Source: an uncultured Prevotella sp. (GTDB taxonomy: Bacteria; Bacteroidota; Bacteroidia; Bacteroidales; Bacteroidaceae). From it: a DNA stretch of 64,000 nt. Position 1 is the first letter of the stretch. Every line of letters begins with the position of its first letter. The notes below the pieces were generated by a model. It saw only the letters and a list, made by a program, of their open reading frames with translations. It had not been told where the DNA came from and ran no database searches. Of this stretch, positions 1,616 through 30,153 are shown piece by piece. The position numbers were made by a program, and so were the translations under genes. The DNA lies in NCBI GenBank assembly GCA_947169685.1, contig CAMVQS010000003.1, positions 20,023 to 84,022 of the forward strand. The letters are read 5' to 3'.

Positions 1616-2012
1616 ATAAATTGTTCTCTAACATCAAAATAAATGTGAATAAAAATATTACAATCCTACATTATTCACTCCTATCCCTCCGTAAATCCAT
1701 AACTCCGATAATCCATCTTCCATCTTACACCCGCCTTCATACATCAGACATATTCCACAATCCCGATTGCTTCTTCCGTCAAGCCTTGGCATTTTCACAA
1801 GGAGCCCATCCTATTGGAACTCGTCAAGAATGGATCATCAGAACCGTCCCGCTTTCTGAAGCGAAATGAATTTCAAATGCGGAGGTGTGGCCTGACTTCG
1901 CCGAATTCACGCGGCAAAGATACAAAATAATTTTGAAATTCAATCACAATTTTAATAATAAATGCGACAGTTGGCCGTATTTTGATGCGACAGTTGGCCG
2001 TATTTTGATGCG
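1616..2012. other. Intergenic stretch with an orphan minus-strand promoter-like site
   Basis: No convincing gene is present; the plus-strand ORF of 198 codons (1273-1869) is antisense to the ATPase and has no recognisable content. On the minus strand, TATCTTTG (1915-1922) lies 18 bases after a TTG (1941-1943), a plausible promoter firing left into about 300 bases without an ORF. This could be the remains of a lost gene, or make an untranslated RNA. Confidence 0.4.
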
Positions 2013-2022
2013 ACAGTTGGCC
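1963..2022. repeat. Three tandem copies of a 23-bp repeat after the left traX
   Basis: The unit TGCGACAGTTGGCCGTATTTTGA occurs twice in full and once as its first 14 bases, directly downstream of the left traX stop codon. The same motif in inverse orientation (about ACACGGCCAACTGTCGCATC) follows the right traX at 11621-11663. The repeats therefore belong to the outer ends of the mirrored island. Confidence 0.8.
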
Positions 2023-2034
2023 TTCTTTTACGCA

Positions 2035-2718
2035 TCAAGTAGTAAGCCAGTACGTGCGGAGCAGGTAGAGCAGCAGGAGGTGGAGAGGGTAGAAGGCGTA
2101 GAAGAAGTACTTGCCGAAGGAACCGGTGATGAATCCGCGCTTGCCGTTATACAGCGCCAGCAGGGCGAAGCCCGCTGCCACACCAGGAATATATCGCCTT
2201 GCAATGATGCAAGTACCTAAGAACAACTTCAGCACCTTCTGTTCACGCAGCACGTAGAGCAGCAAGATAAGGCCCACGCCACCTATATTATAATCCACCT
2301 TCAGGACATACGCTGCGAGGAATACCGTTATGAGCGCAAGCGTCTGCCGCATCCAGTTTTCTTTCATATACTCCCAGAGATACAGCGTCAGGAAACCCAA
2401 CAGCAGCGTGAACCCCACGTTGCCGTGCAGCCAGAACTTACTGTTGAGGTGTGCCAATGCCCACGGAGCTTGCGACACAAGGGCAAACACCAGCAGGTTA
2501 CGTCCATATTTCCTGCGGTCATGAGTATGGATGAACCCCTCCACCAGCAAGAAGGCAAACACAGGGAATGCCACACGTCCCACGGTGTGCATCAGCCGGC
2601 ACAGCTCCGGCCATTGGTGAAGCACGGGCAAGTACGATGCCGCATGGTCAATCGCCATTGTCACCATCGCAATGACCTTCAGCCAACTGCCGTTGAGTAT
2701 TTGGTAGTTATTGGACAT
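2035..2718 (-). CDS. traX: TraX-family membrane acyltransferase-like protein, left copy
   Basis: A 227-residue integral membrane protein starting 'MSNNYQILNGSWLKVIAM'; the ORF track extends it upstream, but this ATG (2716-2718) matches the right copy and overlaps the end of the PP-loop gene by 11 bases, indicating translational coupling. The family signatures 'AMVTMAIDH', 'GRVAFPVFAFLLVEG' and 'HGNVGFTLLLG' fit the TraX family (PF05857). In F-type conjugation TraX N-acetylates pilin. Here it closes a peptide-biosynthesis operon, so acylation of the peptide or of the partner lipoprotein is an attractive inference. It differs from the copy at 10926-11612 at only about eight residues, and the downstream two-thirds looks virtually identical in DNA, so the pair forms a 0.68-kb inverted repeat. 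Confidence 0.85.
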   Translation of the reverse strand: MSNNYQILNGSWLKVIAMVTMAIDHAASYLPVLHQWPELCRLMHTVGRVAFPVFAFLLVEGFIHTHDRRKYGRNLLVFALVSQAPWALAHLNSKFWLHGNVGFTLLLGFLTLYLWEYMKENWMRQTLALITVFLAAYVLKVDYNIGGVGLILLLYVLREQKVLKLFLGTCIIARRYIPGVAAGFALLALYNGKRGFITGSFGKYFFYAFYPLHLLLLYLLRTYWLTT

Positions 2719-3460
2719 GGGAATCTTTTTTCTTTTTCTCTTTCTTCTTAAACATATTCTTGATGTTATAGAGTATCTTCCCCGTAATAGGGATCTTAAC
2801 CCCTTCCTTCTCAAAGGAACGACAAGGAAGACAATGTCCACAAGGGAATCCCCAGACAGGCTTCAGACACGACCATGTATGCTTTACCACATTTTTGTAT
2901 CCCATAGCATACAGTTCTTCTATTTCCTCCTTCTTCGTTTTATGGTACAACGACTTGGGGAAATAGAAATGTCCGAACAGATTAATAACATCTTGGTCTG
3001 CTCGTGTTTTATCAATCATTAGCACATCGTAATCTGCATCAGGATGTGGAATGAGTAGTGTCTCATCTATTGCTTTGACAATGGTCCCGTTTGGAGAGAA
3101 CTGAAGCCCCATTTCCATCATTAAGTTGTTATGTGCCGCATATTTAGCAAGCCAGTAGTATTGTAGGCTGCTTGTACCTTTTCCAGGAAAAAGGTACATC
3201 CATGAATCAAAGATCTGGTTATTTTTAGCTATATCTTTCTCTTCTATGAGGATAATGTCTGACAATGTTGCACGAGTCTTATTATCTTTTCGCAATAAAT
3301 GGACTATTTTATCCATCGCATGCAGTTCCTGTTGCAAGGATTTCCTTTTTCCTACGATATAATATGGCTGTATGATGCATTCACGACGAGACAGCTCTAC
3401 TATTCGATAGGTGCTGTCTAATCCTCCTGTCCACAATATGTTAATGTGCCTATTCTCCAT
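2708..3460 (-). CDS. QueC-like PP-loop ATPase (putative peptide-tailoring enzyme)
   Basis: The 250-residue protein has an N-terminal PP-loop 'WTGGLDSTYR' (residues 10-19), the pyrophosphate-binding motif of the N-type ATP pyrophosphatase superfamily. Near the C-terminus 'TWSC' (C198) and 'CGHCLPC' (C207, C210, C213) reproduce the four-cysteine zinc site of QueC (7-cyano-7-deazaguanine synthase). The central sequence does not look like orthodox QueC, the tail is Lys-rich, and no other queuosine gene is nearby. It overlaps the radical SAM gene by 11 bases and traX by 11 bases, so it belongs to the left peptide operon, in the slot held by an HprK-like kinase in the right one. QueC turns a carboxylate into an amide and then a nitrile using ATP; analogous carboxylate chemistry on a peptide is inference. 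Confidence 0.75.
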   Translation of the reverse strand: MENRHINILWTGGLDSTYRIVELSRRECIIQPYYIVGKRKSLQQELHAMDKIVHLLRKDNKTRATLSDIILIEEKDIAKNNQIFDSWMYLFPGKGTSSLQYYWLAKYAAHNNLMMEMGLQFSPNGTIVKAIDETLLIPHPDADYDVLMIDKTRADQDVINLFGHFYFPKSLYHKTKKEEIEELYAMGYKNVVKHTWSCLKPVWGFPCGHCLPCRSFEKEGVKIPITGKILYNIKNMFKKKEKKKKDSHVQ

Positions 3461-4772
3461 CTTTATAGACTATGTATTGCTCCAGCATGCCTTCTTCTAT
3501 CTTACGAATATTCTCTCTACGTATGTCTTCATAGCAGACATTGTCTTCTGAACAAATTAAAAGCCTATTACATTGTGGATAATATACGCAGTCTTTACAT
3601 ATTATTTCATCTTTGGGACGTTCTTTGAAACGGTTAATCACCGCTAAATTGTTTTCTTCAGTATTGATATGACCATAGAATTCGCTATCTATGTAGTGCT
3701 CACATTTCCCCAAATATCCATTTGGGGTTATCACAACACTTCTGTCATTATCTGCCATACAGTGATTCACTCTAAATTTCGTAGGAAGTTTCGGTTTGGT
3801 TTTATAATGATAGTTTTTTATAAGTTGTTCTAGCTCCATTCGTTGCTTGTATATTACATTTCGTTCTTCCTGTGTTCGTTTGGTATTTCCTTCTATGTAG
3901 TCAAATAATACATGAGAGTAGATTGTTAAAAAGCTATTCTCGCCAAATCGCTCGTGAAGTTCTCTTACCAGAGTGAACATGTTGTCAATGTTATGCTTAT
4001 CCACATTCAACCGGATAATTACCTTGATTTCGGCAGCAGTTAGTTTTCCAATGTTATCTAACACCTGCTGATAAGCGTTTCCATCCTTATAGATATACCG
4101 CTTACTACGATTATAGATTTCTTCAGTACCATCAAGTGTAATCTGCACTTTTTTTAGTTTCCAAAGTTGCTTGGCACGTTGAATAACATTGTCATCGAAC
4201 AAATAGCCATTACTTACCATAGTGGAAGTCAGTTTAATTCCACTATCCTTCAGTTGCTGGCAAATAATGTCAATAACATGAACATTATATAACGGTTCAC
4301 CCCCAAACCAACGAATATGTATATCATTGTTTTGCTGTCTAACAATGAACTGCGCAACCCGCTTAGCTGTCTCTATGCTCATGTGGATGTGGGCTGCATT
4401 TTTTTCAAAACAGTAAAAACAACGGGCATTACAATCTGAAGTAGGAAGGATAACAAAATTATCCATTCCTGTATTTTTCTTTTCAAAAAGCATTGCCATT
4501 GACTTCACCTGCTTACAAAGTTTTTTGTCATCGTGGTCTTGTGGAACTAAAAACCATAATTCAAATAGTTCATCTAATTCCATGAGGTGCTGAGCCTCTT
4601 CTTTGTTTAGCCATACTAAGCATAGTGTGAGAGTATTATAAATCAACAACCCATCTTCAACATGTTGTTGTATAACATATGTTAACAGACGAAGAGGGAA
4701 TTGGTCTTCTTTTCGTTTTTGCTGTCCAATAATCTTATCTACTATAGTAGTAGGAGGGATAATAATCTGCAT
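3450..4772 (-). CDS. Radical SAM/SPASM peptide maturase, left operon
   Basis: I start at the internal ATG 4772 ('MQIIIPPTT'), not at the ORF-track start, because the right-hand paralogue begins 'MQIIQPP' and this ATG falls 1 base past the lipoprotein stop. The radical SAM cluster motif 'CNARCFYC' lies at residues 114-121, followed by 'WFGGEPLYN' (SAM binding) and 'SNGYLF'. The C-terminal third has 'GKCEHY', then 'CKDCVYYPQC' and 'CSEDNVCYED', a SPASM domain expected to hold auxiliary Fe-S clusters. Enzymes of this build install thioether or C-C crosslinks, or epimerise residues, in ribosomal peptides. The substrate is probably the 42-residue peptide at 5828-5956. The N-terminal region of about 100 residues may recognise the leader; no separate RRE gene is visible. 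Confidence 0.9.
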   Translation of the reverse strand: MQIIIPPTTIVDKIIGQQKRKEDQFPLRLLTYVIQQHVEDGLLIYNTLTLCLVWLNKEEAQHLMELDELFELWFLVPQDHDDKKLCKQVKSMAMLFEKKNTGMDNFVILPTSDCNARCFYCFEKNAAHIHMSIETAKRVAQFIVRQQNNDIHIRWFGGEPLYNVHVIDIICQQLKDSGIKLTSTMVSNGYLFDDNVIQRAKQLWKLKKVQITLDGTEEIYNRSKRYIYKDGNAYQQVLDNIGKLTAAEIKVIIRLNVDKHNIDNMFTLVRELHERFGENSFLTIYSHVLFDYIEGNTKRTQEERNVIYKQRMELEQLIKNYHYKTKPKLPTKFRVNHCMADNDRSVVITPNGYLGKCEHYIDSEFYGHINTEENNLAVINRFKERPKDEIICKDCVYYPQCNRLLICSEDNVCYEDIRRENIRKIEEGMLEQYIVYKDGE

Positions 4773-4773
4773 A

Positions 4774-5805
4774 TTATTCCAAAGCAACTCCACCTAAACC
4801 GACCTCCGAATCGTAAGGAGTAACATAGGCAGAGGGGGTCGTTGTTAAAGCTAATCCAGTAAAGGCTATTCCTCGAACTGTGCCCCTTTCCCAATTACGT
4901 GAATCACTATTATCCAATGTCATTGTCTGTGAATAACAATTACCATTAGAATCCCATACATAAGCTGTTATGGTTTTTCCTCGTAAATCTATAGGGGGAA
5001 CAACTAGATAGGCCGTTAACACATTCTTGGTAGCCAGAGGGGCACTCTTAATTAGTACATATACGAAATTGGTGTTATTCTCTGCTATGAATGGTTGAGA
5101 TTCTGGAGTATGTTTGCCATTCGCATTTTTATGAACATCAAACAAATCAAAGTATCCCTTTTGGGGGAAACCGTTATAATCAATTGCTAATACGACCTTA
5201 CGGTAATCTGCATTAGTTGGAGCATAGCACTGAAATCTTAATATACATGCCATGTTTCTTAGCGAAGCATGGAAAGTTCCATTATCTGCACGTGTGGTGT
5301 CTGTCGCTTCAAAAATATGCTCTCCCAAATGTTCGTGGTTGGTATTAACTGATTGTATTTGAGGTTTGCCGTAATCCCATGGAATCCTATTATAATTTCG
5401 GTTGTAAAAATTAAAAGGCAAGTATGTTGAATACATAATACCATCCTTAGTCATCCATCCTTGCGCTTCAATAAGTACTCCCGATGCTGTTTCCCCTTCT
5501 TTTAATGGTAAAACAAATGGTATTTGATAACCACCGTCGGGGAAAATACCCAAAGTATCCGTATGCTCAAAAAGTATACCAATATTTTGCCCCGTACCAG
5601 TAGTAGTTGCACGGGTTGTAACCAAGGAGTCGTTATTTTGTTCATCTATGGAAGGCTCGAGCTTACTGGAGTCCAAGGGAAGTCTACTGACAATAATGTG
5701 ATCTACACGACTATAACCTGTCCATTCGTCTACATTTGTTGAACACGACACAACAAGACAGATGAACAATTGAGAAACAAAGCAATTTTTAAAATAACGC
5801 CTCAC
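4774..5805 (-). CDS. Fimbrillin-like lipoprotein of the left peptide operon
   Basis: A 343-residue exported protein with a hydrophobic segment ending in a lipobox-like 'LVVSC' (C21). After a variable linker come 'VTTRATTTG', resembling the T-R-A site of fimbrillins, and 'DTLGIFPDGGYQIPF', typical of Mfa-like/fimbrillin folds. The right-operon partner (7736-8734) shares this block, the 'GWMTKDGIMYSTYLPF' region and a closing 'G-V-A-[LI]-E'. It lies 22 bases after the precursor peptide and abuts the maturase gene. A surface lipoprotein encoded between precursor and maturase suggests that the peptide is displayed on, carried by or sensed through a pilus-like subunit; that role is inference. Confidence 0.7.
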   Translation of the reverse strand: MRRYFKNCFVSQLFICLVVSCSTNVDEWTGYSRVDHIIVSRLPLDSSKLEPSIDEQNNDSLVTTRATTTGTGQNIGILFEHTDTLGIFPDGGYQIPFVLPLKEGETASGVLIEAQGWMTKDGIMYSTYLPFNFYNRNYNRIPWDYGKPQIQSVNTNHEHLGEHIFEATDTTRADNGTFHASLRNMACILRFQCYAPTNADYRKVVLAIDYNGFPQKGYFDLFDVHKNANGKHTPESQPFIAENNTNFVYVLIKSAPLATKNVLTAYLVVPPIDLRGKTITAYVWDSNGNCYSQTMTLDNSDSRNWERGTVRGIAFTGLALTTTPSAYVTPYDSEVGLGGVALE

Positions 5806-5827
5806 TAAAAAACGGAGTTAATGAATA

Positions 5828-5956
5828 TCAAAGACCATCACAGCTATTTGTTGGGCAATCACCGTTACACTCCTCCTGAGAGGCTGAAAGAATTCCAATA
5901 GTCATGTTCAGCTTAATCTCCTCCATCTCGGGAGTTTCATACATCTTCTTTTCCAT
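5828..5956 (-). CDS. Putative RiPP precursor peptide A (not in the ORF track)
   Basis: A 42-residue peptide beginning 'MEKKMYETPEMEEIKL', a charged leader of the K-x-Y-x-T-P-E type common to Bacteroidales radical SAM precursors. It continues with 'GILSAS' and a Cys-rich tail 'CNGDCPTNSCDGL' (C30, C34, C39). The first 16 residues are identical to peptide B at 7588-7719, while the tails have nothing in common except three cysteines: conserved leader, divergent core. The start is preceded by an A-rich stretch (AAGAAAAACGTAAT) typical of this phylum instead of a strong Shine-Dalgarno. Upstream of its conserved 5' UTR, no -7 box is seen in the present orientation, so it may be silent. That it is a modified, secreted peptide is inference from the neighbours. 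Confidence 0.8.
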   Translation of the reverse strand: MEKKMYETPEMEEIKLNMTIGILSASQEECNGDCPTNSCDGL

Positions 5957-6076
5957 ATTACGTTTTTCTTGTTCGTGCTCCCTGTTCCCTTTAAGGAGCG
6001 GTTATCTTTACTGCGGCCGTGGGAACTCCGACCCATCATTTCTTACATACTGCCATCCACCTCGCGGCCCGAGGTG
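5904..6076. repeat. Inverted repeat arm, left (about 172 bp; UTR plus leader codons)
   Basis: The reverse complement of this stretch matches 7466-7637 over its whole length with only a few differences, concentrated just upstream of the start codon (GAGCACGAACAAG versus GAGCCAGAAAAAAG). It covers the 5' UTR and the first 16 codons of the precursor, then homology ends abruptly. Confidence 0.9.
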
Positions 6077-6082
6077 GATATC

Positions 6083-6215
6083 TTGTTCCCACCGTGGGAA
6101 CAGATTGAAAGGTGCCGTGTAAGGGTTCGTTACATACTATGTAAGGCACCCTTACATAGGGGTTAACGACCCGAAAGTCGGTATGTTTCGGTGCGAAAGT
6201 CGGTATGTTTCGCCG
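6083..6215. repeat. Dispersed non-coding repeat, copy 1
   Basis: This begins with the palindrome TGTTCCCACCGTGGGAACA, then runs through 'GGTGCCGTGTAAGGGTTCG', the palindrome TTACATACTATGTAA and 'GGGGTTAACGACCCG', and ends in tandem units of CGAAAGTCGGTATGTTTCGG. The reverse complement of 63726-63869 repeats it nearly base for base apart from about 15 bases in the middle. It lies directly outside the left inverted-repeat arm, where the right operon has its promoter. Confidence 0.85.
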
Positions 6216-6242
6216 GAACAGGTCAAGACCTCAAGCGACAAC

Positions 6243-6427
6243 CCTGAAACATCGATGTACACAGCGTTTGAGGTATAGGGGGTGTTGGCATAAGACCCCC
6301 CATACACCTCCCATACACCCCCCATACACTCCATAGATCTGTCAACATGAGGTCTATGGGGGGTGTATGTGAGATCTTACCATAACACCCCCTATACCTC
6401 AAACGCTGTGTACATCGACATTTCAGA
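6243..6427. repeat. Nested palindromic element (MITE-like)
   Basis: Perfect 35-bp arms (6252-6286 and 6384-6418) containing GAGGTATAGGGGGTGTT extend imperfectly to about 45 bp. Inside are further inverted pairs (CCATAGA/TCTATGG) and C-rich direct repeats 'CCCATACAC'. No frame carries a transposase. A small non-autonomous element or a large RNA hairpin are both possible; the ORF-track entries here are products of the repeat. Confidence 0.65.
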
Positions 6428-6532
6428 CGGCCATAGGAGTATGTGGGGTGTTTCTCAAAATTCTGATTCACTCCCAGCCCCCTGTGTTTCAATAAACAAT
6501 GCCATGCACCGAGAGAAGTATGTTGAAAAAGT

Positions 6533-6625
6533 GTTTTTTAATTAAATTCTAACCTGGCAAACCATCTTTTTATCACTTTTTCCCGAAATTGTTTGGCGGT
6601 TCAGAAAAGTATTCATAACTTTGCC
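6533..6625 (+). repeat. 93-bp promoter-bearing direct repeat, copy 1
   Basis: The sequence from GTTTTTTAATTAAATTC through CTTTGCC recurs at 7360-7452 with about five mismatches. Each copy ends in a complete promoter. The two copies flank the toxin-antitoxin pair, so recombination between them would delete the pair and leave one promoter. Confidence 0.9.
6592..6623 (+). promoter_or_regulatory. Promoter of the PIN toxin-antitoxin pair
   Basis: TTTG (6592-6595), 20 bases, then TAACTTTG (6616-6623): a full match to the Bacteroidetes -33/-7 pattern, 28 bases upstream of the antitoxin ATG. Confidence 0.8.
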
Positions 6626-6651
6626 AACAAGAAAACAACAAAAGAGATATT

Positions 6652-6939
6652 ATGACAGCTTTAGCAAAGAAAATATCAGAAACGCCTATGGCCCCATACA
6701 CAGAACTTTTGCGAAGTATGAAGCCGCAAGAGATACGCATTGTTGTTACCTTTTTGCAAGAGGCATTGCAAGAGGCAGAAGGGGTAAATCCAGAAGCAAA
6801 TGTCTCTGAGATTATCCGCAACAAGTTTAAAGGCCTTACCATCTCGCAGGAGACCAAGGATCTCGTGCGAGACCTTTCGTTGTCTTCAGAAGAAATGGGT
6901 GATGAAAGAACACAATACATTTTAGGGTATAGACAATGA
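6652..6939 (+). CDS. Antitoxin-like protein paired with a PIN toxin
   Basis: A 95-residue, charged, probably helical protein with no membrane segment. Its gene ends in a 4-base ATGA overlap with the PIN-domain gene, the usual antitoxin-toxin arrangement. The family is not recognisable beyond the pattern 'EIRIVVTFLQEAL' and 'VSEIIRNKF'. By analogy with VapB-type proteins it would bind the toxin and its own promoter, though no ribbon-helix-helix or AbrB motif is evident. It has its own promoter and lies inside the potentially invertible segment, between two copies of a direct repeat, so it may act as a stability module for the peptide locus; that purpose is inference. Confidence 0.7.
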   Translation: MTALAKKISETPMAPYTELLRSMKPQEIRIVVTFLQEALQEAEGVNPEANVSEIIRNKFKGLTISQETKDLVRDLSLSSEEMGDERTQYILGYRQ

Positions 6940-7349
6940 CAAAGGTTTTTCTTGATACAAACATCTTGATGGACTTTGTTGAAAATCGTGAAAGACGAGA
7001 ATATGCTGAGACCATCATTGAGCTTGGGAAAACAGGTGTAATACAGCTTTATGCCTCATATCTGTCGTATGCCAACATGGGGTATGTCCTACGTCACCGT
7101 AGCCAAGAAGAGCGCTACCGTATGATTAATAATGCTCGTAAAATTGCAACTGTGTTGCCATGTGACTCAGACCAGCTTGACAGCACTTTGGAAAAGCCTG
7201 TGAAAGACTACGAAGACATGCTGCAGTATCAATGCGCGTTGGCAGCAGGATGTGATGTCATAGTAACAAATAACAAACGTGACTTTTTCGAGTTTTGCAA
7301 GTTACCATTTCTTACTTCGGAAGAATTCCTGTTGCAGATTGATTTTTGA
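6936..7349 (+). CDS. PIN-domain ribonuclease toxin (VapC-like)
   Basis: The 137-residue protein starts with 'KVFLDTNILMDF', the first acidic motif of PIN nucleases. It continues with a helical middle and then 'DYEDMLQYQCALAAGCDVIVTNNKRDF', which carries the remaining acidic residues and the T-N-x-x-D-F signature. PIN toxins cleave tRNA or rRNA with Mg or Mn. Length is normal for the family and all expected acidic positions are present, so it should be active. Translation is coupled to the upstream antitoxin by a 4-base overlap. No other gene follows before the second direct repeat begins 11 bases downstream. Confidence 0.85.
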   Translation: MTKVFLDTNILMDFVENRERREYAETIIELGKTGVIQLYASYLSYANMGYVLRHRSQEERYRMINNARKIATVLPCDSDQLDSTLEKPVKDYEDMLQYQCALAAGCDVIVTNNKRDFFEFCKLPFLTSEEFLLQIDF

Positions 7350-7359
7350 GCGTATGGCC

Positions 7360-7452
7360 GTTTTTTAATTAAATTCTAACCTGGCAAACCATCTTTTTAT
7401 TACTTTTTCCCGAAATTGTTTGGCTGTTCAGAAAAGTATTTGTACCTTTGCC
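7360..7452 (+). repeat. 93-bp promoter-bearing direct repeat, copy 2
   Basis: Second copy of the 6533-6625 sequence, 827 bases further on. It ends 14 bases before the right inverted-repeat arm and supplies the promoter of peptide operon B. Confidence 0.9.
7419..7450 (+). promoter_or_regulatory. Promoter of peptide operon B
   Basis: TTTG (7419-7422), 20 bases, then TACCTTTG (7443-7450). Transcription should begin a few bases later, inside or just before the right inverted-repeat arm, giving a 5' leader of about 130 bases. No equivalent promoter precedes operon A. Confidence 0.8.
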
Positions 7453-7465
7453 CTCGAAATGTGTA

Positions 7466-7637
7466 CACCTCGGGCCGCGAGGTGGATGGCAGTATGTAAA
7501 AAATGATGGGTCGGAGTTCCCACGGCCGCAGTAAAGATAACCGCTCCTCAAAGGGAACAGGGAGCCAGAAAAAAGTATAAACGTAATATGGAAAAGAAGA
7601 TGTATGAGACTCCCGAGATGGAGGAGATTAAGCTGAA
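7466..7637. repeat. Inverted repeat arm, right (about 172 bp; UTR plus leader codons)
   Basis: Mirror copy of 5904-6076. Within the transcribed leader are a hairpin CACCTCGGGCCGCGAGGTG (7466-7484) and a second possible pairing of GTTCCC (7516-7521) with GGGAAC (7553-7558). Both stems are kept in the left copy, so the RNA fold may matter for expression. Confidence 0.9.
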
Positions 7638-7719
7638 GATGGAAAAGAGCCTGATGGGATGTGTTGAAGTTGGTACGACTTCTGATGTGGATTGTGATGA
7701 ATTTTGTGAAGAAGACTAA
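7588..7719 (+). CDS. Putative RiPP precursor peptide B (not in the ORF track)
   Basis: A 43-residue peptide with the leader 'MEKKMYETPEMEEIKL', identical to that of peptide A, followed by 'KMEKSLMGC' and an acidic tail with cysteines at C25, C36 and C40 ('DVDCDEFCEED'). Divergent core behind a constant leader, immediate proximity to a radical SAM/SPASM gene and an A-rich translation start all argue for a real precursor. The tail lacks a double-glycine; 'LMG' before the first Cys is a candidate cleavage region. It lies 137 bases downstream of a strong promoter and 16 bases ahead of the lipoprotein gene, so it is the first gene of operon B. Modification type is unknown; Cys thioether crosslinks are a reasonable first guess. 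Confidence 0.8.
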   Translation: MEKKMYETPEMEEIKLKMEKSLMGCVEVGTTSDVDCDEFCEED

Positions 7720-7735
7720 TGATTCATTCTGTTGA

Positions 7736-8734
7736 ATGAGATTGTCGTTGACGGTATTGAGACCTATTTCCTTGTGTCTGTTTTGCGTTATGTTTGTCAT
7801 AGCGTGTAACAGTCAAGAGGATTCATACACTTTGGTGAAAGAGATTAAATTGACCATTGAAGACATGGAAATAGGTGAACTAGATGATTCTATTTCTGCA
7901 AACGAAATTATTACTCGTTCAATCTTAGAAAATGACGGATCAAAAGTTTCATATCTTTTTGAAGATCATGACACCATCGGTATTTTTCCCGAGGGAGGTT
8001 TTGAGATCCCTTTTATAGTTGAAATACCAGATTTAGTGCCAACAAAAGAGGTTACTCTTATTGCGAATGGTTGGCGTACTAAGGATGGAGTGAAGTATTG
8101 CTCATATCTGCCTTTTGACCGATACAACTTTGACTACTCTAATCGTGTTCCATGGAGATTTGCAGGAATAAGACAAAATGGAAACAAAGACGGAGTAAAA
8201 ACAGGTTCTAAGAATTCTCTATTCTTGGCAACACGCCCTACGGAAACGACTCCAGAAGGGCTCTTTAATGCGGCTTTTACACATATGGGGACTATTGTAC
8301 GCGCTAATTACAAACTTGCAACTGTAGGGACCTTTAAAAAGGCATGCATTGTAGCGCCAACGGCTCGATTTGCCTTAAATGGCACTTATGATCTTTATGC
8401 AGACGGACAACCTTTTACACCAGGAGAAATGAGTAATCATTTCGACGTCATGCTGGATAACTTAACAACAACTGCAAGTTCCACCAACGTTTATGTTTAT
8501 TATATTCTATCACCAGATATCAGCAATGCTAGCGGTGACCAGTTGATAGGCTACATATGGGATGACAACGGCATACGATACAGAGGGGTTTATACGTTTT
8601 CCAAAGCTACAGTATGGAAGCGGAATGGCTTTGCCACCATTAGTTTTACAATGGAACGAGAATCAAACAACCTTGATGTTTATCAAAATGAATTCAGTAC
8701 GGAATCGGAATTTAACGGTGTCGCTATAGAATAA
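7736..8734 (+). CDS. Fimbrillin-like lipoprotein of the right peptide operon
   Basis: A 332-residue protein with a signal peptide ending in the lipobox 'FVIAC' (C24). Residues about 80-125 ('DTIGIFPEGGFEIPF', 'GWRTKDGVKYCSYLPF') match the left-operon partner and, more loosely, the fimbrillin array at 16-31 kb; 'IITRSIL' occupies the T-R-[AS] position. It ends in 'FNGVAIE', like 'LGGVALE' in the left copy, suggesting a conserved C-terminal strand. It sits between precursor and maturase, with 13 bases to the latter. It should be anchored in the outer membrane. Whether it presents the modified peptide, protects the producer or is itself modified cannot be decided from sequence. Confidence 0.7.
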   Translation: MRLSLTVLRPISLCLFCVMFVIACNSQEDSYTLVKEIKLTIEDMEIGELDDSISANEIITRSILENDGSKVSYLFEDHDTIGIFPEGGFEIPFIVEIPDLVPTKEVTLIANGWRTKDGVKYCSYLPFDRYNFDYSNRVPWRFAGIRQNGNKDGVKTGSKNSLFLATRPTETTPEGLFNAAFTHMGTIVRANYKLATVGTFKKACIVAPTARFALNGTYDLYADGQPFTPGEMSNHFDVMLDNLTTTASSTNVYVYYILSPDISNASGDQLIGYIWDDNGIRYRGVYTFSKATVWKRNGFATISFTMERESNNLDVYQNEFSTESEFNGVAIE

Positions 8735-8747
8735 TAGAATTTTCTCT

Positions 8748-10067
8748 ATGCAAATTATTCAACCCCCATCTCCACTAATAGATGGTTTACTGAAATCTCA
8801 GAAATATCATATAGGAACAGAATACCGATTGATAACGTATGCTATAAAGCTACTGGTACCAGAAGGCGTTTTGCTTTACAATTTACTGACCAAATGCATT
8901 GTATTATGCCAACAAGAAGACTTGAAGGCAGCTTCAGCGGATAATCCGCTCATACAATATTGGTTTTTAGTTCCAGAAAAACACGATGACCAGCGACTCT
9001 GTGAACAGATAAGAAGTGCTCTACAACTGATTCAAAAAAAAGAGAATTTCATTTCTGGGTATTGTATATTTACGACTACTGTTTGTAATGCACGTTGTTT
9101 CTATTGTTTTGAACGTGGTAGCAAGGAACGGACGATGAATGATGAAATAGCTGCAAAGGTGGTTGACTATATCGCACAGAATGCATGTGGCCATCAAGTG
9201 CGCTTTCGCTGGTTTGGTGGAGAACCTCTCTACAACATGCAGGCTATTGATAATATATGCGATGGACTTAAGAGACGAGGTGTTGATTATGTTTCTAAGA
9301 TGGTTAGCAATGGATATTTGTTTAATGAAAACGTAATCAAAAGAGCTGCGACATTATGGAAGTTGGATAAAATCCAGATAACCCTTGACGGAACAGAAGA
9401 AAAATACAATCGTATTAAAAACTATAAGGATAATAGAGAGAGTGCCTATCTGCGAGTAATGAAAAATATCGGCTTGCTGTTGGAATATGGTATCCGGGTC
9501 GTTATTCGCCTGAACATTGATGCCATCAACATTGAGGATATGACTTGTCTGGTTCATGAGCTACATACTCGCTATGGTGGAAATAAATTGCTTTCAGTTT
9601 ATTCACGTACTTTGTTTGAAAATAAAGGATGTGTTCGCAAAAGAAGCAATGAGGAGCGAGCACTTCTTTGTAATCAGCAAATAGAATTGGAAAAACTTAT
9701 TTACGGATACAATTTGAATGAAGCCCCATCAAATTTACGAAAAGTTTGGGTGAATGCCTGCATGGCAGACACCTCGCATACTATCACAATATTACCAGAC
9801 GGAAAACTGGGAAAGTGTAATGATTATTTGGAGAGTCACTTTGTCGGAACGCTCGACGAGGGAATCACAGACGAAAAGATGGTGCAAGCATTTACGCTTC
9901 AACGGGAGCCATTAGCCGATTGTAGGTCTTGTGCTCTTCAACCAGATTGCCTTAGATTACAGCTATGCATGGAAAAAGAACACTGCTACGTTGAAGAAAG
10001 AAGAATCAAGGTGTTTCGTATTCAGCAAATGATGTTGAAAACATTTGAGAAAAACAAGGCAGTATGA
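8748..10067 (+). CDS. Radical SAM/SPASM peptide maturase, right operon
   Basis: The 439-residue enzyme carries 'CNARCFYC' at residues 113-120, 'FRWFGGEPLYNMQ' and 'SNGYLF', and C-terminal SPASM cysteines ('GKCNDY', 'CRSCALQPDC', 'CMEKEHCYVEE'). It is a clear paralogue of the left-operon enzyme along its full length, with best agreement around the cluster motifs. It overlaps the next gene by the 4 bases ATGA. The predicted substrate is precursor B, whose leader is identical to that of precursor A; each maturase could therefore act on either peptide if leader recognition dominates. It is cytoplasmic; the product chemistry is not predictable beyond a radical crosslink or epimerisation. Confidence 0.9.
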   Translation: MQIIQPPSPLIDGLLKSQKYHIGTEYRLITYAIKLLVPEGVLLYNLLTKCIVLCQQEDLKAASADNPLIQYWFLVPEKHDDQRLCEQIRSALQLIQKKENFISGYCIFTTTVCNARCFYCFERGSKERTMNDEIAAKVVDYIAQNACGHQVRFRWFGGEPLYNMQAIDNICDGLKRRGVDYVSKMVSNGYLFNENVIKRAATLWKLDKIQITLDGTEEKYNRIKNYKDNRESAYLRVMKNIGLLLEYGIRVVIRLNIDAINIEDMTCLVHELHTRYGGNKLLSVYSRTLFENKGCVRKRSNEERALLCNQQIELEKLIYGYNLNEAPSNLRKVWVNACMADTSHTITILPDGKLGKCNDYLESHFVGTLDEGITDEKMVQAFTLQREPLADCRSCALQPDCLRLQLCMEKEHCYVEERRIKVFRIQQMMLKTFEKNKAV

Positions 10068-10933
10068 GAACAATTCTTTCATACAGAATAGCAGGAATAG
10101 ATTTTGCAATAAATATAGAAAAAGAGGCTATTGAACAAAATCTGCTAAATCACTACAACTCTTTTAGAATAGAAGGAACAAAAGAATTTGATTTTGTACT
10201 GGACATCGTCAACCGACAGGAAAGAATGGAAGGTGAACAGATTCTTGGCGGTGACAAGATAAGAAGCCAGATATATCGGGTACAGAACGGTTACTATAAG
10301 GAGGCGTTAGGCAGAGAGAGGAGAAGAGTGTTGTATGCAATATATTTAAATAGCAATTATAGCTATGGAAGGTTGAAAATAAATCAGCATACTCGTACTA
10401 TATTGAACGAAGCCATTATGACCATGTTTTTTGCTGCAATGGCCAAATTCCACGTAATAAAAATTCATGCATCGTCTGTCATTAAGGATGGCAAAGCCAT
10501 TCTCTTTCATGCGCCATGTGGTACAGGTAAGAGTACGCATAGTCAGCAATGGATGAAGGCATTTCCTGATGCGGAACTGTTGAATGATGATGGACCCGTA
10601 GTACGCGTATGGCCTGACGGAAGGGTGATTGCATACGGCAGTCCTTGGAGTGGGAAAACTCCTTGCTACAAAAACCTATCGGCACCTGTAGCTGCATTTG
10701 TACGTATCAACAGGGCTAAAGAAAACAAGATTCATCGCCTAAGACTTGTGGAGGCATATGCATCATTACTTCCTTCCTGTACTGGAGTAAAGTGGAATGA
10801 TGATATACGCAATTATACACATGAAACCATGCAAAAGGTAATATCAACCGTTCCCTTTTATCAATTGGACTGCCTACCCAACGAGGACGCTGCAAGGGTA
10901 TGTGCAGCGGAAGTATTGAAACTACATGAATAG
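10064..10933 (+). CDS. HprK-like P-loop kinase of the right peptide operon
   Basis: The 289-residue protein has a Walker A 'PCGTGKST' at residues 151-158, then 'LLNDDGPVVR' at about 172-181 and 'YGSPWSGKTP' at 191-200. These are the hallmarks of HPr kinase/phosphorylase-related proteins found in many peptide-biosynthesis clusters. The N-terminal 110 residues are not the HprK N-terminal domain. In some lasso-peptide clusters HprK-type kinases phosphorylate the peptide, so phosphorylation of peptide B or its carrier is a fair inference. It is coupled to the maturase by a 4-base overlap and to traX by an 8-base overlap. Its position matches that of the unrelated PP-loop gene in the left operon. 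Confidence 0.8.
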   Translation: MRTILSYRIAGIDFAINIEKEAIEQNLLNHYNSFRIEGTKEFDFVLDIVNRQERMEGEQILGGDKIRSQIYRVQNGYYKEALGRERRRVLYAIYLNSNYSYGRLKINQHTRTILNEAIMTMFFAAMAKFHVIKIHASSVIKDGKAILFHAPCGTGKSTHSQQWMKAFPDAELLNDDGPVVRVWPDGRVIAYGSPWSGKTPCYKNLSAPVAAFVRINRAKENKIHRLRLVEAYASLLPSCTGVKWNDDIRNYTHETMQKVISTVPFYQLDCLPNEDAARVCAAEVLKLHE

Positions 10934-11612
10934 CAATAACTACCAAATACTGAGTGGAAGCTGGCTGAAGGTCATCGCGATGGTGACGATGGCGATTGAC
11001 CATACGGCATCGTACCTGCCTGTGCTTCACCAATGGCCGGAACTGTGTTGGCTGATGCACACTGTGGGACGTGTGGCATTCCCCGTGTTTGCCTTCTTGC
11101 TGGTGGAGGGATTTGTCCATACCCATGATCGCAGGAAGTACGGACGGAACCTACTGGTACTTGCCTTGGTGTCACAGACTCCGTGGGCATTGGCACACCT
11201 CAACAGTAAGTTCTGGCTGCACGGCAACGTGGGGTTCACGCTGCTGTTGGGTTTCCTGACGCTGTATCTCTGGGAGTATATGAAAGAAAACTGGATGCGG
11301 CAGACGCTTGCGCTCATAACGGTATTCCTCGCAGCGTATGTCCTGAAGGTGGATTATAATATAGGTGGCGTGGGCCTTATCTTGCTGCTCTACGTGCTGC
11401 GTGAACAGAAGGTGCTGAAGTTGTTCTTAGGTACTTGCATCATTGCAAGGCGATATATTCCTGGTGTGGCAGCGGGCTTCGCCCTGCTGGCGCTGTACAA
11501 TGGCAAGCGCGGATTCATCACAGGTTCCTTCGGCAAGTATCTTTTCTACGCCTTCTACCCTCTCCACCTCCTGCTGCTCTACCTGCTCCGCACATACTGG
11601 CTTACCACTTGA
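10926..11612 (+). CDS. traX: TraX-family membrane acyltransferase-like protein, right copy
   Basis: A 228-residue membrane protein almost identical to the left copy, with the same 'MVTMAIDH', 'FAFLLVEG' and 'HGNVGFTLLLG' blocks and the same C-terminus 'LLRTYWLTT'. It starts inside the kinase gene (8-base overlap), so in both operons the last gene is a translationally coupled traX. Retention at the same place in two operons with different tailoring enzymes makes a shared job likely, for example acylating the peptide N-terminus as TraX does to F pilin. The long identical DNA stretch suggests recent gene conversion or inversion between the copies. Confidence 0.85.
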   Translation: MNSNNYQILSGSWLKVIAMVTMAIDHTASYLPVLHQWPELCWLMHTVGRVAFPVFAFLLVEGFVHTHDRRKYGRNLLVLALVSQTPWALAHLNSKFWLHGNVGFTLLLGFLTLYLWEYMKENWMRQTLALITVFLAAYVLKVDYNIGGVGLILLLYVLREQKVLKLFLGTCIIARRYIPGVAAGFALLALYNGKRGFITGSFGKYLFYAFYPLHLLLLYLLRTYWLTT

Positions 11613-11616
11613 TGCG
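11591..11616. repeat. 26-bp direct repeat, left of the HipBA module
   Basis: CACATACTGGCTTACCACTTGATGCG here covers the last codons and stop of traX. It recurs perfectly at 13339-13364, where it contains the end of an outer-membrane protein gene. The 1.75 kb between the copies consists of two short repeats plus the hipBA-like genes. Confidence 0.9.
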
Positions 11617-11620
11617 GAGG

Positions 11621-11663
11621 AAACACGGCCAACTATCGCATCAAAACACGGCCAACTGTCATA
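11621..11663. repeat. Two copies of the ACGGCCAACTGTCGCATCAAA repeat after the right traX
   Basis: AAACACGGCCAACTATCGCATC is followed by AAAACACGGCCAACTGTCATA; this is the inverse of the 23-bp repeat at 1963-2022 and marks the outer edge of the mirrored island. Confidence 0.75.
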
Positions 11664-11664
11664 A

Positions 11665-12918
11665 TCAGGACTTCACTCGGCTGTCTAATCGTTGGGCGAA
11701 TCGGTTTTGTTCTGATGGGGATATTTTGAGTTCATTGGCAACTTTCCTCCAATCCCTGACTGCCGTTTTTGTCTTCTCTATGATTCTTGCTGCTGTGTCT
11801 GGAGAAAGGAAATAGTCTTTACAGGCATCTTGCAACTTCTCGAGACTTGCTTCATTCGAGTTGTTATTGATGAGCAGGCTTTGATTGTTACTGTCAGTCG
11901 GGTTAAGGTCATAGGCTGGGGATAATGTCCAACCTTTCTTCGTCAAGAGAAATCCGTGGTTTCGGAAATGATCGTCACTATTGCCCACACAAATGTTAAA
12001 TACCACACGTCGAAATAGCTCTTCAAGATTGTCATCGACATTGACACAATTGGAAAGAATAAAATCTACAATATCCAAATAGCCATGTCCTGTTTCGAAG
12101 TTGTCTCCGTCCTTTAAGCCTGTCATAGTCATGGCAGAAGCAAAATGGATCCGACGGCATGCTTCTGTTCTATCGAATCGTCTTGAGAGCAGTGCATGAT
12201 ATCTACCAACCGGCAGTATTGCCGTTTCTGCTGCGTTTATGGATGCAGACTTTGCCAAGACATGACAGAAATGCTCCCATAGAGCTACATCATACAGGTC
12301 ATTACGTGAAGGAAACTTTGCAATCCACAAACCTCCGTTTTCGTCGGTTACATTGGCTTTCGGTCGAGCACCGCCCAAAGATGTGCCTGGGCGTTCTAAT
12401 TGCCTGATCCATTTCTTTTCAGGCAATTCATTAGCCTCCTCGCTCTTCTCATATTCCTGAGCTATTGCTGTCAGCTCTTTTACTGAGGTTAATGGCGGTA
12501 CAGACAATCTATTATCCGAATTGACAAATTCTCCATTAGGATCCTTCTTAAATCGAAGGCCTCCCATACGGGTGTAATCATCAATACCTTTTAGGTAGTC
12601 AAAAGAGTAAAGTGACCTTACTGCTCTCTTTTCCTCTGCTGCCTCAACCTGCTCTTTCCTGTCCAGCAAACGACGTCCCCATCTGTCAGGAAGTGTATCA
12701 GAGATACAGCCAAAAACATGTTCCTCTTGAGAATACTGGAAGCCTGCATAATTGCCGATTTCATCACTCAAGACAATGGCACTATGATTCTTCAACCATT
12801 CTTTTTCAAAACAGAAACCGTAAGTACCATTACCACGCAGACGTTCATACGTCAGACAGCCAACCAACTCGGGGTTGTCTAGCCAGTCGAAATCGGCATA
12901 CACATAGAGTTTTTCCAT
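11665..12918 (-). CDS. hipA: HipA-like serine/threonine kinase toxin
   Basis: The 417-residue protein has a HipA N-terminal subdomain, then 'SLGGARPKANV' (residues 180-190, nucleotide loop), 'WIAKFPS', the catalytic 'GNSDDHFRNHGFLL' (N313, D316 region) and the metal-binding 'LSPAYDLNP' (333-340). HipA of E. coli phosphorylates glutamyl-tRNA synthetase and induces dormancy; all key positions are present, so activity is expected. The gene lies 3 bases downstream of a HipB-like repressor and shares its promoter. It runs tail-to-tail with the right traX, with 52 bases between the stops. The target of this homologue is unknown. Confidence 0.9.
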   Translation of the reverse strand: MEKLYVYADFDWLDNPELVGCLTYERLRGNGTYGFCFEKEWLKNHSAIVLSDEIGNYAGFQYSQEEHVFGCISDTLPDRWGRRLLDRKEQVEAAEEKRAVRSLYSFDYLKGIDDYTRMGGLRFKKDPNGEFVNSDNRLSVPPLTSVKELTAIAQEYEKSEEANELPEKKWIRQLERPGTSLGGARPKANVTDENGGLWIAKFPSRNDLYDVALWEHFCHVLAKSASINAAETAILPVGRYHALLSRRFDRTEACRRIHFASAMTMTGLKDGDNFETGHGYLDIVDFILSNCVNVDDNLEELFRRVVFNICVGNSDDHFRNHGFLLTKKGWTLSPAYDLNPTDSNNQSLLINNNSNEASLEKLQDACKDYFLSPDTAARIIEKTKTAVRDWRKVANELKISPSEQNRFAQRLDSRVKS

Positions 12919-16138: not shown

Positions 16139-17125
16139 TTAGTTATCATTGGGGTTAGTAGGTTCCATGAGGCCCGTGTCACCATCGTAAGTGGTAGTGG
16201 TACCGCCTGATTCCCAATCGGCATAGAGCACCTGACTACTCAGTCGTAGCGACTGCTCGTCGAGCAAGAGCGACACCTCGGTACACAGTCCTGAACGTAG
16301 CTGGATATTGTCGAGGGAGTATTTCACGGGCTTACCATCGATGGTCAAGCGGATAGTGAGGGTGCCAGGCGATGCCGTAGGCAACACGAGCCACTCCGTG
16401 TATGCATAGTGGGTGCCGAAGGCCTCGGTCAGTTCCTCGTCAATAACGGAAGAGAGGCCATTGGTGCCTGTCGTGACGATTTCTCCCGTCTGAGCATTGT
16501 AATGTCCCGATGTGGCGTAGCAAGTGCCTTCGATGGCTGCTGCCGTCCACTGCGGCTTGTGTGTAACGGCCTCGTTGTAGGCTGTGGAGAACTTAACGTT
16601 TGTCTGCACACGAATCTTCGCCTTGATATGCTGCAGGATGAAACGCACATTGGGTCGTGCCTTGCTGATGTTGGTCTTCCACGAGGTATAGAGGTTGTCT
16701 ATGTCTGTACCATCGTTGGGGCAAGTCAGCGGAATATTGGTAACATCGAATGAGGGACTGCCGTCATAGGGGAAATAGGCCATGGCCTGCCACGGCTGGT
16801 CAGTCAGCACAAGTCGGCTTGGGGCTATCCATTTCTGAGCTGTCATCTCGCCAGAGGACGTATAGACCACGTTGTTCTGCTTGATGTCAGCGGTATTGCC
16901 CTGTCCGGTGACAAAGACTCCCACCTGTGTCCCACTATCAAAGTAGCCTCCTGGCAACACCTGACCAGCGCGTGTCTCGTCGTCAATGCCCACTGTTGCA
17001 CTGATGGTCATCTCTACCTGTTCGGCATCAGAGTTGCTTGTGCAGGCAGCTGTCATCGTCATCAGTGCGATGACGATTGCAATTGACAATTGACAATTGA
17101 TAATTGATAATTGATATTTTTTCAC
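16139..17125 (-). CDS. Fimbrillin-family lipoprotein 1 (distal)
   Basis: 328 residues with lipobox 'TMTAAC' (C28). The fimbrillin T-R-A site appears as 'DETRAGQVLPGG' and the core motif as 'AMAYFPYDG'. It has no FISUMP domain and ends in an Asn/Pro-rich tail. The N-terminal 'YQLSIINCQLSIAIV' is encoded by the tandem AATTGACAATTGATAATTG repeat at 17082-17117, which elsewhere in Bacteroidales is intergenic, so the signal peptide may have been built from, or the start may lie downstream of, this repeat. It is preceded by a 36-base gap, one of the larger ones in the operon. Confidence 0.75.
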   Translation of the reverse strand: MKKYQLSIINCQLSIAIVIALMTMTAACTSNSDAEQVEMTISATVGIDDETRAGQVLPGGYFDSGTQVGVFVTGQGNTADIKQNNVVYTSSGEMTAQKWIAPSRLVLTDQPWQAMAYFPYDGSPSFDVTNIPLTCPNDGTDIDNLYTSWKTNISKARPNVRFILQHIKAKIRVQTNVKFSTAYNEAVTHKPQWTAAAIEGTCYATSGHYNAQTGEIVTTGTNGLSSVIDEELTEAFGTHYAYTEWLVLPTASPGTLTIRLTIDGKPVKYSLDNIQLRSGLCTEVSLLLDEQSLRLSSQVLYADWESGGTTTTYDGDTGLMEPTNPNDN

Positions 17126-17158
17126 TTTTAACTCTTAACTCTAAATTCTAAACTATGT
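17073..17158. repeat. AT-rich spacer repeat (AATTGATAATTG / TTAACTCTTAACTCTAAA)
   Basis: Short tandem units GACAATT, GATAATT and TAACTCT run from within the signal-peptide codons of the gene at 16139-17125 into the gap before it. This is a familiar low-complexity spacer in Bacteroidales chromosomes; no regulatory meaning is apparent. Confidence 0.7.
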
Positions 17159-17161
17159 CCT

Positions 17162-18130
17162 CTATTCGAGGATTACCTGTTCCTTATCGTCGTCAATGAA
17201 GTCACGGATAGTAACCGACTCCACCGTCATGCGGTTCTGCGAGAGCTTCAGGTTAAAGGTGTAATACTTGTTGCTCTCGAAAGCACCGGCATAGGTGTAT
17301 TTGACAGAGAACTCTATGCCATCGACAGTAGCGTAGAACGTCAGCTGTTTGTTGGCGGCATTGCGTAGCGGGATAAATAGCATCTCGCCCAACTCGGCAC
17401 TGGTGTTCAGGCCCTGCGTCTTCTCAACATTGATAGCCTTCTGTATGAGATTACCCACGGCAACATCCGACAGCTCGTTAGTCAGGCTGTTGAGGGTAGC
17501 CGAAGTGCCGATGGCCTCACCTTTCATGGCCATGTGGGTGATGTAGATGTACTGTCCCGACTGGTGGCGGCTGTAGTCGCCCGTGTTCAGATTCAGCATG
17601 ATTTTCGAAGCGATGCGCTGCATGTAAAGATAGACGCCTGTACCTGATCCGCTGCCCATGTTACCACGACGAATGGGGTCGCCATTATATTCGGGGTTGG
17701 GGTGCATGGTGGTCTGCCAGGGCACACACTTCCAGTCAATGGCGGTAGTAACGGGGATGGCAGCAGGGTCAATGCCCTCGGTATAGGGATGATAGGCCGA
17801 CACGGCAGCATCGTAGTCGATGAGGGCAATACCTCTCGACGATGTCCAGTGATAGTAGTTGTTGGAGCTATCATAGGTATAGGGCACGTTTCGGTCCTGA
17901 TAGAAACGATGATTACCGTCGGCATCTTGCGTGCTGACACCAATGGTAGCACCATTACCGAAACCATAGTAGGCGCGTGTTATCGGCTCGGTGCTGATGG
18001 AAGCATCCATCTCCACACTGGCAATGCGCAGCATCTCCACAGCATTGCCGTCCTGTTCGTCGTTGGAGCAGGCGGTAAATGCCATGAATGCCATAAGCAC
18101 AAGTCCTATCTTTATTCTACGTTTCATCAT
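17162..18130 (-). CDS. Fimbrillin-family lipoprotein 2
   Basis: 322 residues, lipobox 'AFTAC' (C21), processing-like site 'PITRAYYGF' and core 'VSAYHPYTEGIDPAAIPV'. The second half has the 'SNKYYTFNLKLSQNRMTVESV' strand pattern that closes the fimbrillin C-domain; there is no extra domain. It lies 21 bases downstream of the next gene up. Such proteins are exported as lipoproteins; in type V pili the R residue is cut by an Arg-specific protease before polymerisation. No such protease is in the window. Confidence 0.8.
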   Translation of the reverse strand: MMKRRIKIGLVLMAFMAFTACSNDEQDGNAVEMLRIASVEMDASISTEPITRAYYGFGNGATIGVSTQDADGNHRFYQDRNVPYTYDSSNNYYHWTSSRGIALIDYDAAVSAYHPYTEGIDPAAIPVTTAIDWKCVPWQTTMHPNPEYNGDPIRRGNMGSGSGTGVYLYMQRIASKIMLNLNTGDYSRHQSGQYIYITHMAMKGEAIGTSATLNSLTNELSDVAVGNLIQKAINVEKTQGLNTSAELGEMLFIPLRNAANKQLTFYATVDGIEFSVKYTYAGAFESNKYYTFNLKLSQNRMTVESVTIRDFIDDDKEQVILE

Positions 18131-18151
18131 TTTCTACATGTCACTAATTAG

Positions 18152-19129
18152 TTAGTTATTGATGGGTGTAGTGTCCTTACCAGTCTGGTTTGTTGTCGTC
18201 CATGGGGTGATGGTCACGTTTTGCACGACCAGCTCGGTGGTGATGTTTTCCACCTTAATGAGCACGGGGATATTCACCTTATAACCGGAGCGTACCACCA
18301 CATTGGGAACGGTGGCGGTGAGATAACTGTCGCGAATCTTGGCCGAGATGGTGATGGTGATGGGACTGGTGGTATAGGGAATCACCATCCATGTCAGCGA
18401 CTGTGGTCCATTGGTCGTCGTCGGATTATAACGTGGCGACTTCTTGCCGAAGGTCTCTGCCCTCTCCACCTCCGAGAACACTCCCGTAGTAGAGTTGAAG
18501 GTGGCATTCAGTCCCATGTCGCCATCAATGGTGACATACGAGAGATAACCATAATCATCCCTGTCACATGTCAGCTGTAGGCAGATGAGTGCATAGGCAT
18601 GTCGCATCTCCAGGTTTGCCGTGCGGTTGGCGTAGCTGACATAGGGCTTGTTGACACCATCGTAGTCGCTGAAGGGTGCATATAGCCAATCGGTCTGTGA
18701 CTGACCTGTTCCCGGGGTGTAGGATATGGGAATAGCGCGTGGGTCGAGTCCGTAACTGTAAGGATAGTAGGCCGACACCTTGGCTGGTGCATAGGTCAGG
18801 ATATCGACGTTAGGTGCATCGGTGTAGGAAGAACCCGTTTGTGGAATATAAGTTGCAGATCCCTCAGACCATTTTGAGTTGTAATAGCGATAGAAGAGTC
18901 CCCAATGATTATAGACATCGGTAGAGCCGTCTGCTCCGATGAGGCTAATGCCTATCCGATCATTGTCCTCAAAGGATGACTTTAAAGCCCGGGTAGCCTC
19001 GTCGCCGGTCATGTAGGCATTGACCTGCAAAGGTGCACGTGGCTCATCTGTCGGCTCCTGTTCGCTAGAGCAGGCAGCAAACGTCAGCATCAGAAGGCTG
19101 TATATATATATAAGGTATCGTCTCATCAT
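18152..19129 (-). CDS. Fimbrillin-family lipoprotein 3
   Basis: 325 residues with lipobox 'LTFAAC' (C20), 'EATRALKSSFEDNDRIGI' and 'VSAYYPYSYGLDPRAIPI', the last two being the most typical fimbrillin stretches. It closes with 'YKVNIPVLIKVENITTELVVQNVTITPW'. The gene shares one base with the gene upstream (stop/start at 19129), so translation is probably coupled. No FISUMP domain. Confidence 0.82.
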   Translation of the reverse strand: MMRRYLIYIYSLLMLTFAACSSEQEPTDEPRAPLQVNAYMTGDEATRALKSSFEDNDRIGISLIGADGSTDVYNHWGLFYRYYNSKWSEGSATYIPQTGSSYTDAPNVDILTYAPAKVSAYYPYSYGLDPRAIPISYTPGTGQSQTDWLYAPFSDYDGVNKPYVSYANRTANLEMRHAYALICLQLTCDRDDYGYLSYVTIDGDMGLNATFNSTTGVFSEVERAETFGKKSPRYNPTTTNGPQSLTWMVIPYTTSPITITISAKIRDSYLTATVPNVVVRSGYKVNIPVLIKVENITTELVVQNVTITPWTTTNQTGKDTTPINN

Positions 19130-20076: not shown

Positions 20077-20077
20077 C

Positions 20078-21694: not shown

Positions 21695-21697
21695 CGG

Positions 21698-24095: not shown

Positions 24096-24108
24096 ATCTG
24101 TTTCATTT

Positions 24109-25632: not shown

Positions 25633-25635
25633 ACG

Positions 25636-27159: not shown

Positions 27160-27170
27160 TCGGCATTTTA

Positions 27171-28457: not shown

Positions 28458-28481
28458 CTTCTCTACGTATAATGTTTTATT

Positions 28482-30149: not shown

Positions 30150-30153
30150 GTCT

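Follow-up and report, generated by a model that had tools for sequence, protein, structure and literature searches.

Two translationally coupled traX genes at the ends of diverged radical SAM peptide operons in an uncultured Prevotella, and a possible role in peptide acetylation

What does a homologue of TraX do at the end of an operon for the maturation of peptides? The TraX of the F plasmid is needed for the N-terminal acetylation of propilin and is dispensable for pilus biogenesis (PMC7555446). The window analysed here, a stretch of 64,000 nucleotides from an uncultured Prevotella sp. (assembly GCA_947169685.1, contig CAMVQS010000003.1), carries two traX genes, the only two in the source genome. 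Both close an operon in which a radical SAM/SPASM maturase is located downstream of a short precursor-like gene, a pairing that recurs in relatives. A preliminary description of this locus knew of no RiPP pathway using TraX, and none is reported in the open-access PMC literature that we have searched.

Two peptide operons with traX as their last gene

Operon A, on the minus strand, encodes a peptide, a fimbrillin-like lipoprotein, a radical SAM enzyme, a QueC-like protein and TraX, whereas operon B, on the plus strand, has the same order with an HPr-kinase-like protein in the fourth position. The genes are:

5828..5956 (-): precursor-like peptide A, with a MEKKMYETPEMEEIKL leader and a Cys-containing tail; first 16 residues the same as in peptide B
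4774..5805 (-): fimbrillin-like lipoprotein A (LipA), with a lipobox in its signal peptide; 32% identity with lipoprotein B
3450..4793 (-): radical SAM/SPASM peptide maturase A; PF04055 E 5e-14, best NCBIfam match TIGR04463, under cut-off
2708..3460 (-): QueC-like PP-loop ATP pyrophosphatase, 250 aa, Cys4 zinc motif; PF06508 E 1.7e-4, just under cut-off
2035..2718 (-): traX A, 227 aa; PF05857 E 3e-38; last gene of operon A
7588..7719 (+): precursor-like peptide B; first 16 residues the same as in peptide A
7736..8734 (+): fimbrillin-like lipoprotein B (LipB); 32% identical to lipoprotein A
8748..10067 (+): radical SAM/SPASM peptide maturase B; PF04055 E 8e-13; 42% identical to A
10064..10933 (+): HPr-kinase-like protein, candidate RiPP peptide kinase; TIGR04352 E 7.5e-6, under cut-off; APCGTGKS and NDD motifs
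10926..11612 (+): traX B, 228 aa; PF05857 E 2.2e-37; last gene of operon B

With 132 and 130 bits for copies A and B, the traX genes score well above the curated PF05857 cut-off of 25 bits. Their immediate upstream neighbours are unrelated to each other. The QueC-like protein shows TGGLDS and Cys-rich motifs, and a 60% identical relative adjoins a related radical SAM gene in another genome (locus L115, 4853-5836), which ties this PP-loop protein with its zinc-type cysteines to peptide radical SAM operons, where its gene apparently takes the place of the HPr-kinase-like gene. For lasso-peptide kinases, GKS and DD motifs have been described (PMC10368454). Neither operon contains a gene for an RRE (PqqD-like) or for an exporter between peptide and traX. 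A separate contig of the same genome (C95; locus L232, 712-3920) holds an HPr-kinase-like gene, an S24/S26-type peptidase, a PqqD-like gene and an ABC exporter and is devoid of a radical SAM gene. Searches of PDB sequences with lipoprotein B and the QueC-like protein returned nothing useful, and an Rfam scan of window positions 1900-12000 gave no match.

In a profile comparison, the two lipoproteins weakly resemble the Mfa_like_1 proteins of the window (E 3.5e-5, probability 72); a structure model of LipA (pLDDT 40) was too poor and was not used. Just beyond operon B lies a one-strand array of lipoprotein genes (16139-31254), in which five of the six members tested are Mfa_like_1 (fimbrillin-like) proteins, two of them with an extra C-terminal domain, the remaining members having been judged by sequence alone. 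Short peptides (68 and 75 aa) that begin in a Y..P..EV-like manner are also encoded directly upstream of genes for fimbrillin-like secreted proteins at other loci (L238, 1108-1314; L242, 1181-1408), where flanks of 1.5 kb contain no radical SAM gene. The divergent operons A and B are separated by a toxin-antitoxin-like pair (6652-7349, with a PIN-domain protein at 6936-7349) flanked by 93-base direct repeats that are ~95% identical (6533-6625 and 7360-7452).

The preliminary description held that both traX genes start inside the preceding gene, and the overlaps of 11 bases with the QueC-like gene (2708-2718, within 3460-2708) and 8 bases with the HPr-kinase-like gene (10926-10933, within 10064-10933) are confirmed. 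The N-termini read MSNNY... in copy A and MNSNNY... in copy B, each start codon being built partly from the end of its own upstream gene. Because the sequences upstream are unrelated and the start codons borrow from different genes, the translational coupling arose separately at the two junctions, which favours real operon membership.

Copy relationship of the two traX genes

Over 728 bases, which comprise traX and ~46 bases downstream of it, the two copies share 93.8% identity. The homology starts at the start of traX (A 2713 / B 10934), with unrelated sequence preceding it. Similar conservation is found at the opposite ends of the operons, and the shared segments are:

5903..6076 (-): 5' untranslated region and leader codons of operon A; 94% identical to 7466-7641
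7466..7641 (+): 5' untranslated region and leader codons of operon B; a segment that the genome contains just twice
2150..2468 (-): identical 319-base run in traX A, the same as 11179-11497
11179..11497 (+): identical 319-base run in traX B, the same as 2150-2468
1989..2034 (-): tail of the traX block shared with operon B, 3' of traX A; 23-base tandem units continue to ~1964
11613..11660 (+): tail of the traX block shared with operon A, 3' of traX B

Differences between the copies are clustered: the first 250 bases contain 35, the following 319 are free of them and the last 112 contain eight. None of 20,000 shuffles contained a difference-free run as long; the 319-base run is thus a gene-conversion tract. 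The traX pair is one gene that was copied or homogenised rather than the outcome of two independent recruitments. At the same time, the low dN/dS of ~0.11-0.17 between the copies (dN 0.024; dS 0.15-0.21) reflects purifying selection on both proteins, and both genes are intact, translationally coupled and under selection. The view of the preliminary description that traX is a true member of both operons accordingly stands with respect to intactness, coupling, selection and the separate formation of the junctions, whereas the two operons do not count as independent cases, in light of the high identity and the clean run of 319 bases.

The operon pair illustrates an architecture of constant ends, consisting of the 5' region with the leader on one side and of traX with its tail on the other, and a diverged middle, where the radical SAM enzymes are 42% and the lipoproteins 32% identical and the genes before traX (QueC-like and HPr-kinase-like) are unrelated. 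Three tandem 23-base units (ATGCGACAGTTGGCC...) are found at the end of traX A (1964-2022) and are partly decayed in traX B. These three are the only exact copies of the repeat in the genome, which rules out the tail as a dispersed element.

Distribution of traX and of related radical SAM operons

Within the genus, traX is present in 38 of 299 genomes, that of the window included, and is mostly solitary or part of conjugative elements. Conjugation-type genes surround it at seven loci (L034, L035, L037-L040 and L042), which lends some appeal to the idea that the window TraX was left behind by a conjugative element and has a conjugative pilin as its substrate. We regard this as highly improbable since, in a maximum-likelihood tree of TraX sequences from which F TraX itself is absent, the window pair and solitary homologues from Prevotellaceae form a well-supported clade separate from that of the conjugation type, and no transfer gene was seen among the open reading frames of the window. 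A conjugative origin is thus rejected by both tree placement and neighbourhood. The traX genes of the solitary clade have no constant partner, and a close co-directional frame precedes them in 4 of 17 cases. Many relatives of the window genes reside in gut Bacillota. No relative with more than ~53% identity was detected elsewhere in searches of the genus, the family and a collection of genome contigs, none was found in viral contigs, and phages and plasmids offered partial or weak matches only. A Bacteroidota-wide sample of 344 other genomes contained no traX.

The distribution of the maturases differs from that of traX. We found 17 clear relatives of the window radical SAM enzymes in 15 other genomes of the genus and four more in a family sample, which are associated with a short peptide and often with PqqD-like and HPr-kinase-like genes, a peptidase, a second PqqD and an ABC exporter; at one locus (L105, 1430-4406), a PqqD-like gene separates two radical SAM genes arranged in tandem. 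In the preliminary description, absence of traX from most related operons had been named as an outcome that would refute a role in acylation, and this absence is what we observe: none of the 21 loci carries the gene, with the downstream region fully visible in 11 (L103, L106-L110 and L112-L116), the other genus loci being cut by contig ends and the family loci being covered by flanks of 1.5 kb. The survey of traX genes beside radical SAM genes that it had proposed gave the same picture, as the operon-type enzyme is found at none of 40 traX loci of the genus. Among 80 wider traX loci, a radical SAM gene is found in one, where it is sulfatase-maturase-like and adjoins a sulfatase. The co-occurrence of traX and the radical SAM gene in genomes of the genus (4/15 vs 33/283) is not significant (p = 0.10). 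Since related operons elsewhere lack it, traX is probably a lineage-specific addition and a locally recruited accessory step rather than a core part of the pathway.

A separate association was found on a plasmid of Enterococcus sp. FDAARGOS_375 (NZ_CP023514.1; locus L222, 1787-9723), where a YcaO/SagB cluster for a thiazole/oxazole peptide (TOMM) ends in traX. Its genes encode, in order, a precursor rich in Cys, Ser and Gly (1787-2065), an ABC exporter, a McbB-family protein, a YcaO protein, a second YcaO-like protein, a SagB/ThcOx dehydrogenase and TraX. Part of the TraX-homologous frame lies inside the dehydrogenase gene, where ATG codons are available at 8965 and 8983, and the start of traX thus probably overlaps sagB. 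Two sister TOMM clusters that were inspected, from Pediococcus and Geobacillus, are devoid of traX. It follows that traX has entered RiPP clusters on two or more occasions, always as a sporadic addition, and the Enterococcus cluster modestly strengthens the idea that TraX acylates a peptide. On a plasmid of E. faecalis (L227, 5981-8687), a further traX is located directly 3' of a SpaA-type isopeptide pilin-related gene.

Predicted TraX fold, candidate substrates and known systems

Across 120 TraX homologues, 35 positions are conserved in more than 85% of the sequences, including K15, D25, H26, G48, R49, P53, G62, T66, D143, Y208, Y211, P212 and H214 in the numbering of traX B, and all 35 are unchanged in copy A. 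An AlphaFold model of TraX B based on 47 homologues is helical and of high confidence (pLDDT 93). In a structural comparison its top six matches are all HGSNAT, with 193-213 of 228 residues aligned at Z-scores of 6.6-7.4, where values below 8 are weak for a helical protein; partial unrelated structures rank below them, and Foldseek returned no match at E <= 0.001. The HGSNAT match of the model is thus supportive of a TmAT-like fold without being proof of it. The match is in line with published work that places TraX, with its protein substrate, at the border of the TmAT superfamily, whose enzymes take up acetyl-CoA from the cytosolic side and expose the acyl group on the opposite side of the membrane (PMC12423673). 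Extracytosolic acetyl transfer by TraX appears plausible because the best structural matches of its model are to HGSNAT, an acetyl-CoA:amine transferase.

Together, these properties suggest a mechanism in which two functional copies of one chromosomal Prevotellaceae-type TraX, an acetyltransferase-like protein of the inner membrane, are coupled to the ends of two diverged radical SAM peptide operons, with gene conversion keeping the copies alike. Modification of the peptide would be the task of the radical SAM enzyme, perhaps together with the HPr-kinase-like or the QueC-like protein, and the cassette on contig C95 could export and trim it in trans. By analogy with HGSNAT and F-plasmid TraX, and as judged from the model, TraX most likely binds acetyl-CoA from the cytosol and acetylates an amine exposed at the outer side of the inner membrane. 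The likeliest acceptor would be the exported modified peptide, at its freed N-terminus or at another nucleophile. As a whole, this explanation, in which acetylation by the coupled TraX copies is an optional final modification of a peptide matured by the radical SAM enzyme and then exported, is the one that we tentatively favour, at somewhat less than even probability.

Other readings of the same observations have to be weighed. It is well possible, though less likely than not, that traX is a mobile general-purpose chromosomal gene which inserted behind the other genes of one operon, spread to the second as a recombinational copy and benefits from the promoter while playing no role in peptide maturation, with the near-identical operon ends mainly serving a recombination that swaps the operon middles. 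Such a passenger would account for inverted operons whose ends are both ~94% identical around diverged middles, for the conversion tract within traX, for the varied contexts of solitary traX genes across Prevotellaceae and for the related operons that do without it; it is less easily reconciled with two different junctions that each have an overlapping start of traX, with purifying selection on the protein and with the separate entry of traX into a RiPP cluster of Enterococcus. We consider it improbable that TraX instead acts on fimbrillin-like lipoproteins, either LipA and LipB or the products of the neighbouring array, for example at their N-terminal cysteine at the inner membrane. The presence of LipA and LipB in both operons with their weak resemblance to Mfa_like_1, the Mfa_like_1 proteins of the array, the traX downstream of a pilin-related gene in E. 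faecalis and, by analogy, the acetylation of pilin by F TraX (PMC7555446) would all be in line with such a substrate. However, seven relatives of LipA and LipB in the genus have no traX within 1.5 kb. The trimming of fimbrillins in Bacteroidota generally takes place at the outer membrane, which is distant from an inner-membrane enzyme.

Acetylation in RiPP pathways is normally carried out by soluble cytosolic enzymes. If acetylation of the exported peptide by TraX is correct, a membrane enzyme acting after export would define a new place and time for RiPP tailoring, and TraX, which is known essentially from F pilin, would gain a second class of substrates and a tractable test system. We find it rather unlikely, though worth stating, that TraX-type acetyltransferases constitute a recurrent and undescribed class of RiPP tailoring enzymes that acetylate exported peptides at the outer face of the membrane, separately recruited to radical-SAM/kinase chemistry in Prevotella and to YcaO/SagB chemistry in Enterococcus.

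The relationship to known systems is in each case partial. With F-plasmid TraX, the window proteins share PF05857, the conserved residues and the organisation as polytopic membrane proteins of ~230-250 aa (PMC7555446), whereas their genes are found without transfer genes, are coupled to genes for peptide maturation and group with solitary Prevotellaceae homologues. The predicted fold would relate TraX to HGSNAT and the TmAT superfamily, as reflected in the six HGSNAT entries that are its best structural matches, although TraX is shorter, does not contain the 10th helix (PMC12423673) and reaches a Z-score of 7.4 at most. The HPr-kinase-like protein resembles lasso-peptide kinases of the PadeK/BsfK type in family and in its GKS and DD motif, but it scores below the TIGR04352 cut-off and the window operons contain no lasso cyclase. 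Related in their maturation genes are the Prevotella operons with peptide, radical SAM, PqqD-like, HPr-kinase-like, peptidase and ABC genes (L102-L117), whose radical SAM enzymes are up to 52% identical and whose HPr-kinase-like genes and short precursors are similar, but which contain a PqqD-like gene and often genes for a peptidase, another PqqD and an ABC exporter, and are devoid of traX and the lipoprotein. In the Enterococcus TOMM cluster (NZ_CP023514.1), by contrast, the chemistry is of the YcaO/SagB type, the host belongs to Bacillota and the traX is distant, yet, as in the window, the gene follows the last RiPP-modifying gene in the same direction and with a probably overlapping start.
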